A stretch of DNA of 64,000 nt, taken from NCBI RefSeq assembly GCF_009789675.1, contig NZ_CP046914.1, forward strand, positions 1,488,001-1,552,000, given 5' to 3'. Position numbers and translations under genes: made by a program. Source of the DNA: Paraburkholderia acidisoli (GTDB lineage: Bacteria; Pseudomonadota; Gammaproteobacteria; Burkholderiales; Burkholderiaceae). Under the pieces are notes generated by a model. That model was not told the DNA's origin and ran no database searches. It saw nothing but the letters and a program-made list of their open reading frames with translations. This document shows, piece after piece, positions 61,101 to 63,662 of this stretch (position 1 is its first letter; each line of letters starts with the position of its first letter).

Positions 61101-61918
61101 CCGAGCACCAGAACCCGCTACGCGCGCGCGTGCAACGCGAACGCGACGCGTTGATCGCGCAAGGCATGAACGCCGACGACGCACGCCGCCGCGCGGGCTG
61201 GCGCGTGTTCAGCGCGCGCCCCGGCGCCTACGGCGCGGGCCTGCAAACGATGATCGATCATCGCCAGTGGCAGACCGACGCCGACCTCGCCAACGCGTAT
61301 CAGGCATGGGGCGGCTTCGCGTATGCACAAAAGAGCGCGGGCGACGAAGCCAGCGACGCGTTTCGCGCGCGCCTCGCCACGCTCGACGTGGTGTTGCAGA
61401 ACCAGGACAACCGCGAGCACGATCTGCTCGACTCGAACGACTACTATCAGTTCCAGGGCGGCATGGCGGCGGCCGCGCGGCACTTCTCGCACGCGCAGCC
61501 CACGCTCTATCACGCCGATCACAGCAACCCGGCGGCGCCGCGCATCCGGCCCTTGCACGAGGAGATCGCGCGCGTGATTCGCTCGCGCGTGGTGAACCCC
61601 AAGTGGATCGACGGTGTGAAGCGCCACGGCTACAAGGGCGCGGCGGAAATGGCGGCCACCGTGGACTATCTGTTCGGCTACGACGCCACGGCGCGCGTGG
61701 TGGGCGATCATCAATACGCACTCGTCGCGAGCGCCTACGTGCACGACGACGCCACGCGCGCCTTCATGCAGCGTCACAATCCGCACGCGCTGCATGCCGT
61801 GTGCGAACGTCTGCTGGAAGCGATCCAGCGCGGCTTGTGGCAGGAGCCGGGCGAGCATCGCGCGCAACTCGAACAGCGTCTGCTCGAAGCCGGGCAGCAA
61901 CTCGAAGGACGATCATGA
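58127..61918 (+). CDS. cobN: Cobaltochelatase large subunit CobN
   Basis: A 1263-aa subunit of the ATP-dependent chelatase that inserts Co2+ into hydrogenobyrinate a,c-diamide. It is a magnesium-chelatase H-type protein with typical segments [74 protein letters not shown] and [21 protein letters not shown]. The length is normal for CobN. The stop overlaps the chlI start by four bases (ATGA), showing translational coupling to its AAA+ partner. It lies 25 bp after cobW, under the same riboswitch. Confidence 0.96.
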   Translation: [1263 protein letters not shown]

Positions 61919-62976
61919 CGAACGCCGCGGCCACGCGTCCCGCGTTGCCCCTTGCTTTTCCCTTTACCGCGCTCGTCGGCCAGGCCGAATTGCAGCGCGC
62001 GTTGCTGCTCGCGGCCATCGACCCGGCGCTCGGTGGCGTGCTCGTCTGCGGTCCGCGCGGCACCGCGAAATCCACGGCCGCGCGCGCGTTGGCCGCGTTG
62101 CTGCCGCACGGCGCGTTCGTCACGCTGCCGCTGGGCGCGAGCGAAGAGAAACTCATCGGCACGCTCGATCTCGAAGCCGCGCTGCGCGAGAGCGCCGTGC
62201 GTTTCGCGCCGGGCCTGCTCGCGCGCGCCCACGAGGGCGTGCTCTACGTCGACGAAGTGAACCTGTTGCCCGATGCGCTCGTCGACGTGCTGCTCGACGC
62301 GGCCGCGAGCGGCATCAACACGGTCGAGCGCGACGGCGTCTCGCACACGCACGACGCGCGCTTCGTGCTGGTCGGCACGATGAATCCCGAGGAAGGCGAG
62401 TTGCGGCCGCAACTGCTGGACCGCTTCGGCTTGCTGGTCGAACTCGCTACGCCGCGCGATGCCGCTGAGCGCCAGCGCATCGTCAAGGCGCGGCTCGCGT
62501 TTGACGCCGATCCGCAAGCGCTCTGCGCCGCGTTCGAGGCGCAGCAACGCGCGCTGGCGCAGCGCATCGTCGCGGCGCGCGCGGCATTGCCCGCGCTGCC
62601 GTGGAGCGACGCCGTGCACGAGCGCGTGGCGCAACGCTGTATCGAGGCGGCCGTGGACGGCATGCGCGCCGATCTCGTGATGTTGCGCGCGGCGCGTGCG
62701 CTCGCGGCTTACGAGGGCGCGCCGGCCGTGAGCCCGGAGCATGTCGACGCCGTGGCCGAGAGCGTGCTCGCGCATCGTCGCCATGCGGCGCCGGAAGCGT
62801 CGCGCCGTCACGATCAGCCGAACGCCAATCATCAGGATACCGAAAGCAATTCGTCCGCCGATAAAAACGAACAGGGCGGGCAGAACGATCAACGCGACTG
62901 GGGCGAACTCGCGCCCGAGCCAGTGGCGGCCACTTCCGTCAAAGGCGTGATTCCGCTACCCGCAAAAAAACGCTGA
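61915..62976 (+). CDS. chlI: ChlI-like AAA+ subunit of cobaltochelatase (zero-frame product)
   Basis: A 353-aa ATPase, the zero-frame product of the gene. Walker A is GPRGTAKST, Walker B-like is VLYVDEVNLL, and the region DGVSHTHDARFVLVGTMNPEEGELRPQLLDRFGL is typical of BchI/ChlI. A polar Asn/Gln/Asp-rich linker follows (about 305-335). The frame ends at TGA 62974-62976 immediately after an A7 run. At that run ribosomes can move to the -1 frame and add the VWA domain (see next entries). The ATG overlaps the cobN stop. It should power the chelatase together with CobN and the longer ChlD-like product. Confidence 0.92.
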   Translation: MTNAAATRPALPLAFPFTALVGQAELQRALLLAAIDPALGGVLVCGPRGTAKSTAARALAALLPHGAFVTLPLGASEEKLIGTLDLEAALRESAVRFAPGLLARAHEGVLYVDEVNLLPDALVDVLLDAAASGINTVERDGVSHTHDARFVLVGTMNPEEGELRPQLLDRFGLLVELATPRDAAERQRIVKARLAFDADPQALCAAFEAQQRALAQRIVAARAALPALPWSDAVHERVAQRCIEAAVDGMRADLVMLRAARALAAYEGAPAVSPEHVDAVAESVLAHRRHAAPEASRRHDQPNANHQDTESNSSADKNEQGGQNDQRDWGELAPEPVAATSVKGVIPLPAKKR

Positions 62977-63662
62977 CCCGTCGGGCAAGGACCGCTGCCT
63001 TCGCACAAGGCGGCGTCCGGCGGCGCAACGATCCAGGTCCGGGCTTTGGCCGCAGCACGTCTGGCGGCTCGCGCGACGACGCGTCGAGCCGGCGCATCGC
63101 GTGGCCGCCCACGCTCGCGGCCAAACGCGGCGCGGCGCTGCAAACGCAGCATCTACGCTTCGCCCGGCGCCAGCCCGCATCGCGCGCGTTGCATTGCTTC
63201 GTGCTCGATTGCTCCGCGTCGATGCTCGCGCGCGGGCAACTCGCGCTTGCCAAGGGGCTATTGATCGCACTGTTCGATCGCGCGCGCGCCGAACGCGCGG
63301 AAGTCGCGTTGATCGCGTTCGGCGGCGCGCGGGCGGAATGGCGCTTCGGCCCGGCGGTGCCGCGCTGGTGGAACGAACGCTGGATCGAGCCGATCGGCGG
63401 TGGCGGCGGCACGCCGCTCGAAGCGGGCGTGCAGCGCGCCGCGCGGTTGCTCGACACGGCGCGGCGCCGCGATCCGGCGCGCGCGCAGCATCTCTGGCTA
63501 TTCAGCGACGGCCGCGTGACGCAATGGCCCGCGCGGCCGCGTCATGCCGATCATGTGCGCGTGATCGACTGCGAAGCGGGCGCGGTGCGAGTGGGGCGTT
63601 GCGAGGCGCTGGCGCAAGCGTGGGACGGCGAATATCTCGACGCGCACGCGTTGCTCGCGTAG
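61915..63662 (+). CDS. chlD: ChlD-like cobaltochelatase subunit made by -1 frameshifting (AAA+ plus VWA)
   Basis: The trans-frame product would have 582 residues: 352 from the chlI frame, then 230 from the -1 frame starting at 62970. The -1 frame opens with a basic, Gly-rich linker (TLTRRARTAAFAQGGVRRRN), then a VWA domain with an intact MIDAS: D-x-S-x-S in LDCSASM (Asp432), Thr in GGGGTPLEAG and Asp in FSDGR. In the -1 frame there is no good start with a ribosome site before the VWA domain; the first internal candidate is a TTG at 63189 that would cut into it. This supports frameshifting rather than an independent gene. Such dual coding has been described for chlD genes in B12 clusters. The frameshift efficiency is unknown. 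Confidence 0.85.
62964..63015 (+). other. Programmed -1 frameshift site: A AAA AAA slippery heptamer and downstream stem
   Basis: Zero-frame codons read GCA AAA AAA CGC TGA, so the seven A residues at 62964-62970 form the canonical X XXY YYZ heptamer. Slipping back one base reads ACG CTG ACC onward without a stop until 63662. Downstream, CGCTGCCTT at 62993-63001 pairs with AAGGCGGCG at 63007-63015 (9 bp with one G-U, 5-base loop), a possible stimulatory hairpin, though farther from the heptamer than usual. A weak AAAGG lies about 20 bases upstream. Confidence 0.85.

Follow-up and report, generated by a model that had tools for sequence, protein, structure and literature searches.

Does a ChlI-like ATPase frame that breaks off beside a run of seven adenines, with a VWA domain continuing in the -1 frame, represent a broken gene, two genes, or one gene for two cobaltochelatase subunits? 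The question is raised by a 64,000-nucleotide (nt) stretch of the Paraburkholderia acidisoli genome (contig NZ_CP046914.1, positions 1,488,001 to 1,552,000; hereafter the window, numbered from its first letter). Our comparison of homologous loci indicates that the locus is very probably a frameshifted chlD (fs-chlD) gene, in which one gene would give two cobaltochelatase subunits through a -1 programmed frameshift, as the first-pass annotation of this DNA had proposed. Judged from that comparison, the split is no error: it is a device that has been conserved. The family of frameshifted chlD genes is already known, and the features of this example first thought odd are ordinary.

Two reading frames and a conserved slip site

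The zero frame opens at ATG 61915 and encodes a ChlI-like AAA+ ATPase of 353 aa (61915-62976, plus strand), the putative small chelatase subunit if translation is unshifted. By sequence inspection its tail reads GCA AAA AAA CGC TGA, with the slippery heptamer A AAA AAA (62964-62970, plus strand) in phase with the zero frame and the stop TGA (62974-62976, plus strand) one codon 3' of it; the end of the frame had been placed just after this heptamer, and those coordinates hold. The zero-frame product matches the first half of profile TIGR02442 (398 bits; whole-protein cut-off 779), scores 340 bits against TIGR02030 (whole-protein cut-off 467), and is matched by the PDB ChlI/BchI entries 6l8d and 1g8p at E < 1e-79. 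The -1 frame stays open between 62868 and TAG 63660-63662, and the extension beyond the shift (62970-63662, plus strand) consists of a linker and a VWA domain, 230 aa followed by TAG. The slipped product would have 352 + 230 = 582 aa, and both product sizes had been given correctly. The VWA part matches VWA_2 (E 7e-8) and the last third of TIGR02442, and is related to the Mg-chelatase 60 kDa subunit (PDB 2x31, E 4e-9). That both halves score below the whole-protein cut-off is expected, since the protein is split.

The metal-ion-dependent adhesion site (MIDAS) reported earlier in the open -1 frame was also found, read by eye on the plus strand as DxSxS (DCSAS, 63207-63221), T (63411-63413) and D (63507-63509), residues that we assume to have their MIDAS roles here. 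Near or after the shift, the earliest ATG, GTG or TTG in the -1 frame is TTG 63189; GTG 63201 comes next. These two codons sit at the VWA domain edge, and neither has a ribosome site (duplex energies +1.2 and +0.7 kcal/mol), in agreement with the earlier statement that the VWA part has no such start. A ChlI-like AAA+ N-terminal frame, an in-frame A AAA AAR just 5' of the zero-frame stop, and the VWA part of ChlD/BchD in the -1 frame without a convincing start of its own are features of fs-chlD genes, and all are found here.

The presence of A7 is by itself at chance level, with three such runs in the window against 1.68 expected and at least three in 25 of 100 shuffles. Its position is beyond chance: the preceding ChlI frame has no other in-frame XXXYYYZ, and cobN has one. 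The first-pass annotation had named the conservation of the A7 run and of both frames as a check, which we carried out on 110 loci: 80 from named genomes, 29 from other genomes of the family, and the window. Selection was by similarity to the zero-frame protein only. The named-genome loci are the best 80 of 575 matches; among the family genomes 155 of 299 had matches, and the best 30 loci were taken, one of which was the window's own (L086) and uncounted. The closest among the matches listed were from Paraburkholderia hiiakae (80% identity), eburnea (78%) and heleia (75%).

The VWA part was found at 107 of the 110 loci and lies in the -1 frame at 106 of these. Every one of the 106 has A AAA AA(A/G), ending in A at 59 and in G at 47, and every one has DxSxS in the -1 frame. 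The base preceding the first Lys codon is always A, which makes up 8.7% of pooled upstream third positions, and the first Lys codon is always AAA, against 77 AAA and 251 AAG among upstream Lys codons; because the loci are related, these are not 106 independent trials. The stop follows exactly one codon after the heptamer in 105 loci and directly (zero codons) in the remaining one. This fixed distance spans Burkholderiales and Pseudomonas, as if the position of the stop were part of the signal. The loci without a VWA match were L018, which has the A7 site, and L036 and L070, neither of which gave a zero-frame stop.

An intact single-frame homologue lacking the slip run had been named as one case that would speak against frameshifting. 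No such pattern emerged among near relatives, where a single locus of the 107 (L054, Marinomonas) has its VWA part in the same frame as the ChlI part. Fused single-frame chlD genes do exist in more distant genomes: in a thin sample of the class, nine of 114 genomes gave a match to TIGR02442 at E <= 1e-40, and two of these (G324 and G326) have it in a full-length single frame. The fused form is also reported by Antonov et al. 2013 (PMC3711429).

A two-tier hairpin and the upstream region

When the 60 nt following the heptamer are folded, the minimum-energy structure has a 9-bp basal helix beneath the stem described by the first-pass annotation. The basal helix pairs 62978-62986 (CCGTCGGGC) with 63015-63023 (GTCCGGCGG) and begins after a 7-nt spacer; the apical helix pairs 62994-63001 with 63007-63014 over 8 bp, all on the plus strand. 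The 9-bp stem reported earlier exists (62993-63001/63007-63015) and is only the top of a larger hairpin. Its distance of 22 bases had been considered unusual, which it is not, because the overlooked basal helix begins at a normal 7 nt from the heptamer.

Support for this structure was sought in two alignments, fed by 107 rows (the 106 -1-frame loci and L018). Alignment A1 (MAFFT) holds 60 sequences, mostly Burkholderiales, of the 67 rows outside the common Pseudomonas form; five identical rows were left out, as were L075 and L040 (Pseudomonas with a different stem, in neither alignment), and L018 was kept. Alignment A2, for the Pseudomonas form, holds 38 of 40 rows after two identical ones were dropped, 36 of them distinct across the counted stretch. 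The two locus collections share some identical rows (L006/L096, L037/L095). Over both helices 86.2% of the A1 cells are paired, compared with 73.5% after shuffling and 31-52% with the 3' partners slid by one to three columns, and double-change cells number 160 against 55; these shuffle controls ignore the relatedness of the sequences. An RNAalifold consensus with no structure preset keeps 12 of these pairs (seven basal, five apical).

Relatedness was taken into account in a covariation test on a tree of the upstream protein, using phylogenetically independent row pairs, the two commonest bases per column and means over random pairings. Changes in the 5' arm of the basal helix were accompanied by the matching Watson-Crick change 9.4 times and by the opposite change 1.0 times (slid partners, 0.5-3.9 matching), and those in the apical helix 4.8 and 0.5 times (slid, 1.0-3.4 matching). 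The predicted basal helix is thus well supported by compensatory changes on the tree, and the apical helix less so; the structure was defined after viewing the same sequences, so the test somewhat favours the hairpin. The downstream RNA structure typical of fs-chlD genes is found here by covariation, and its stimulatory role is predicted. The minimum number of Watson-Crick pair switches on the tree (basal 20, apical 22, slid 10-24 in all) was not used as a control, because the slid versions have far fewer Watson-Crick cells (223-365 versus 837) and equal or more changes per cell.

A free-standing form of the first-reported stem, extended by GGAC/GTCC (62989-62992/63015-63018), was also considered and rejected. 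Its energy is -18.9 kcal/mol compared with -26.5 kcal/mol for the two-tier form, 71.9% of its cells are paired overall, and 42 of 60 rows are unpaired at two of the four added pairs. The Pseudomonas loci form a single 14-pair hairpin from 5 nt after the heptamer, with 94.2% of cells paired; it varies little, with double changes at two of the 14 pairs.

Upstream of the heptamer, a weak Shine-Dalgarno-like stretch (CAAAGGCGTGATT, 62940-62952, plus strand) coincides with the codons of V-K-G-V-I and does not rise above the coding null. The window's best pairing with the 13-nt 16S tail is -9.3 kcal/mol, and that of the gene's own start site -5.9. No Shine-Dalgarno excess was detected against synonymous resamples: these were as strong in 23 of 100 cases in the close clade and in all 100 in each of the two other groups. 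Among the 64 non-Pseudomonas loci, the V-K motif has its Lys codon 23 nt from the heptamer in 50, 32 nt in five, 29 in two and 38 in one, and the motif was not found in six. Since these distances vary by whole codons (longer in eight of the 64), we read the stretch as a protein motif, and an upstream Shine-Dalgarno stimulator was rejected as a conserved element on the grounds of the synonymous null and the variable spacing. A conserved complement of the 16S tail at set spacing, as in dnaX-type signals, was likewise not found among these loci. The weakness of this site had been listed as a peculiarity of the locus; in the fs-chlD family it is the rule. By eye, the peptide V-K-(G/N/S)-V-(I/V/R)-P-L (window 62938-62958) recurs 5' of the slip site in Burkholderiales loci, and it is common to both products.

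The window's clade may have rebalanced its signal, with stimulation moved partly from the hairpin to ribosome binding, which, if true, would make the small-to-medium subunit ratio differ between lineages. The pairing of the V-K-G-V-I codons with the 13-nt 16S tail averages -12.9 kcal/mol in this clade versus -7.4 in the other non-Pseudomonas loci, and the outermost G-C basal pair is, by eye, missing in 14 of the 16 clade loci, with a spacer of 7 instead of 6 nt. We regard this idea as unlikely, and from the synonymous-codon null it gains nothing beyond chance (23 of 100 resamples as strong).

Alternative explanations and the cobalamin locus

Several results weigh against the favoured reading. 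Folds of 75 or 90 nt of the window favour another structure, and in 75-nt folds of the 16 close loci the basal helix is complete in just two (L093 and L097) and partial in two more (L037 and L095); the window has lost the family's outermost basal pair (alignment columns 14/67). In the window and the 15 loci closest to it, hairpin stability does not exceed that of synonymous resamples (mean z 0.01; window -0.19), and dinucleotide shuffles give z of 0.36 and 0.70. Mean z against synonymous resamples is -1.46 in the 48 other non-Pseudomonas loci and -1.43 in the 42 Pseudomonas-group loci. Folding stability was consequently rejected as an argument for the hairpin where the window and its near relatives are concerned, and with no stability excess in this clade the case for the hairpin comes from covariation and not from energy. 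Even there, just 31% of independent 5'-arm changes in both helices are matched by a Watson-Crick change (5-18% when slid); the remaining ones keep the 3' base or go the opposite way, and some leave G-U. Finally, the genome contains a distant CobS/CobT-like AAA+/VWA pair, scoring 128 and 86 bits against cut-offs of 558 and 759. The CobS-like AAA+ gene (L121:988-2322) lies directly 5' of the CobT-like VWA gene (L120:622-2415) on contig C4 at about 767,400-770,550. This pair is probably another MoxR-VWA type pair, as far as its role can be predicted.

Could the two frames be joined, or the VWA part be made, in some other way? RNA polymerase slippage on the A run would produce some mRNAs with an altered number of As that are read in one frame into the VWA domain; A7 is a homopolymer, and slippage at longer A runs is known. 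We consider this highly unlikely, as 47 of the 106 loci have just six As (A AAA AAG) yet retain a perfect tandem slip site, and a covarying hairpin lies downstream of the run. Such a hairpin could stop a ribosome, whereas it would still be untranscribed while the polymerase passes the As and should not aid polymerase slippage. Alternatively, the VWA part could be a separate protein whose initiation in the -1 frame is coupled to termination at TGA 62974. TTG 63189 and GTG 63201 are available for this, 105 of the 106 loci have an ATG, GTG or TTG in the interval that runs from 12 codons before the shift to the MIDAS, and in 16 such a start has a ribosome site at least as strong as the gene's own (-5.9 kcal/mol). 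However, at that limit the starts of the 16 loci are scattered from 2 to 57 codons before the MIDAS, and the window's two candidates lie at the VWA edge without a ribosome site. At other limits the count is nine of 106 (<= -7 kcal/mol) or 30 of 106 (<= -5), with none in the window at own-start strength. No conserved internal start for a VWA protein was found among the 106 loci, and separate initiation would leave the invariant heptamer and the hairpin unexplained; we judge it exceedingly improbable. A sequencing indel or a decaying pseudogene has next to no likelihood. Homopolymers are common indel sites, and single-frame chlD genes exist (L054, G324 and G326), but the same -1 arrangement recurs at 106 of 107 loci, which come from many species and assemblies, with both frames retaining their domains, and this conservation refutes such an error.

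The favoured -1 frameshift also fits its surroundings. The cobN gene for the large cobaltochelatase subunit (58127-61918, plus strand; TIGR02257, 1575 bits, cut-off 822) ends in a TGA that overlaps the ATG of fs-chlD at 61915. It is preceded by cobW (56911-58101, plus strand; TIGR02475, 484 bits, cut-off 332) and by a cobalamin riboswitch (56507-56773, plus strand; RF00174, 40.5 bits, gathering threshold 31.5), all in one direction with fs-chlD. An fs-chlD genome is expected to have cobN and to lack dedicated small- and medium-subunit genes elsewhere. Here cobN is present and, beyond fs-chlD itself, the genome yields just one TIGR02442 match, a weak one (22 bits), but it also holds the CobS/CobT-like pair. 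Most likely the gene supplies both the small and the medium cobaltochelatase subunit in a riboswitch-headed cobW-cobN locus. We infer frameshifting in P. acidisoli, its frequency and a single transcript, and the metal is presumably cobalt, given cobN and the B12 locus.

In the proposed mechanism, ribosomes would begin at ATG 61915, where the gene overlaps the end of cobN, and translate the ChlI-like frame. Those keeping the frame would stop at CGC-TGA and release the 353-aa AAA+ ATPase as small subunit; some would be delayed by the two-tier hairpin 7 nt after A AAA AAA, where two tRNA-Lys could move back one base, and would read 230 more codons into the VWA domain to give the 582-aa ChlD-like medium subunit. 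We propose that a single mRNA behind the cobalamin riboswitch would thereby provide CobN and both ATPase subunits in a set ratio. An annotation listing two genes or a broken gene would overlook the medium subunit of an aerobic cobaltochelatase, and Antonov et al. 2013 (PMC3711429) report that RefSeq lists two genes for such loci.

On the opposite strand lie bluB, cobB, a cob(I)yrinate adenosyltransferase gene and a gene for a CbiG-like protein (below its cut-offs); the riboswitch faces away from the minus-strand bluB, cobB and adenosyltransferase genes. Elsewhere in the genome, the gene after the CobT-like one has a start resembling a J-domain by eye, and annotation might label the CobS/CobT-like pair cobST.

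Relation to known frameshift systems

Dual-coding chlD genes had been described as known, rightly, through the published fs-chlD system. Antonov et al. 2013 (PMC3711429) describe a frameshifted magnesium-chelatase gene cluster that includes Burkholderia, and shifting measured in E. coli of 63, 40 and 10% for 11-, 9- and 7-A cassettes. For Escherichia and further genera they describe a signal in which a hairpin and a Shine-Dalgarno-like site, the latter upstream, accompany the slip site. In Kuznetsov et al. 2022 (PMC9227772), fs-chlD is the source of both aerobic cobaltochelatase subunits, with signals that usually include downstream RNA structure. Atkins et al. 2016 (PMC5009743) give the conserved A_AAA_AAR and possible stems, show the P. 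protegens stem, and call the Pseudomonas chlD hairpin sequence not strongly conserved. Among the papers listed by full-text literature searches, none had a title that concerned a two-tier hairpin in Burkholderiales; Antonov 2020 could well include one.

The P. acidisoli locus shares with the fs-chlD cluster the ChlI-like zero frame, A_AAA_AAR, the -1 shift into the rest of ChlD, the downstream RNA structure and the predicted supply of both the small and the medium subunit of an aerobic cobaltochelatase. It does not differ in kind; its hairpin is built of a basal (9 bp) and an apical (8 bp) tier, compared with a single hairpin in Pseudomonas. Pseudomonas chlD likewise has A_AAA_AAR followed by a hairpin, whose one long stem starts at 5 nt, whereas the two tiers in Burkholderiales start at 7 nt; relative to the review of Pseudomonas chlD, pair-keeping changes are here demonstrated for the Burkholderiales form. 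The corrected picture of the signal, with a two-tier hairpin at standard spacing, compensatory changes and no conserved upstream Shine-Dalgarno part, makes this form directly testable. E. coli dnaX resembles it in having an A AAA AAG-type site and a downstream hairpin. In dnaX an upstream Shine-Dalgarno-like stimulator is present and the shift shortens the product; here no such stimulator is conserved, and the shift would lengthen the product.

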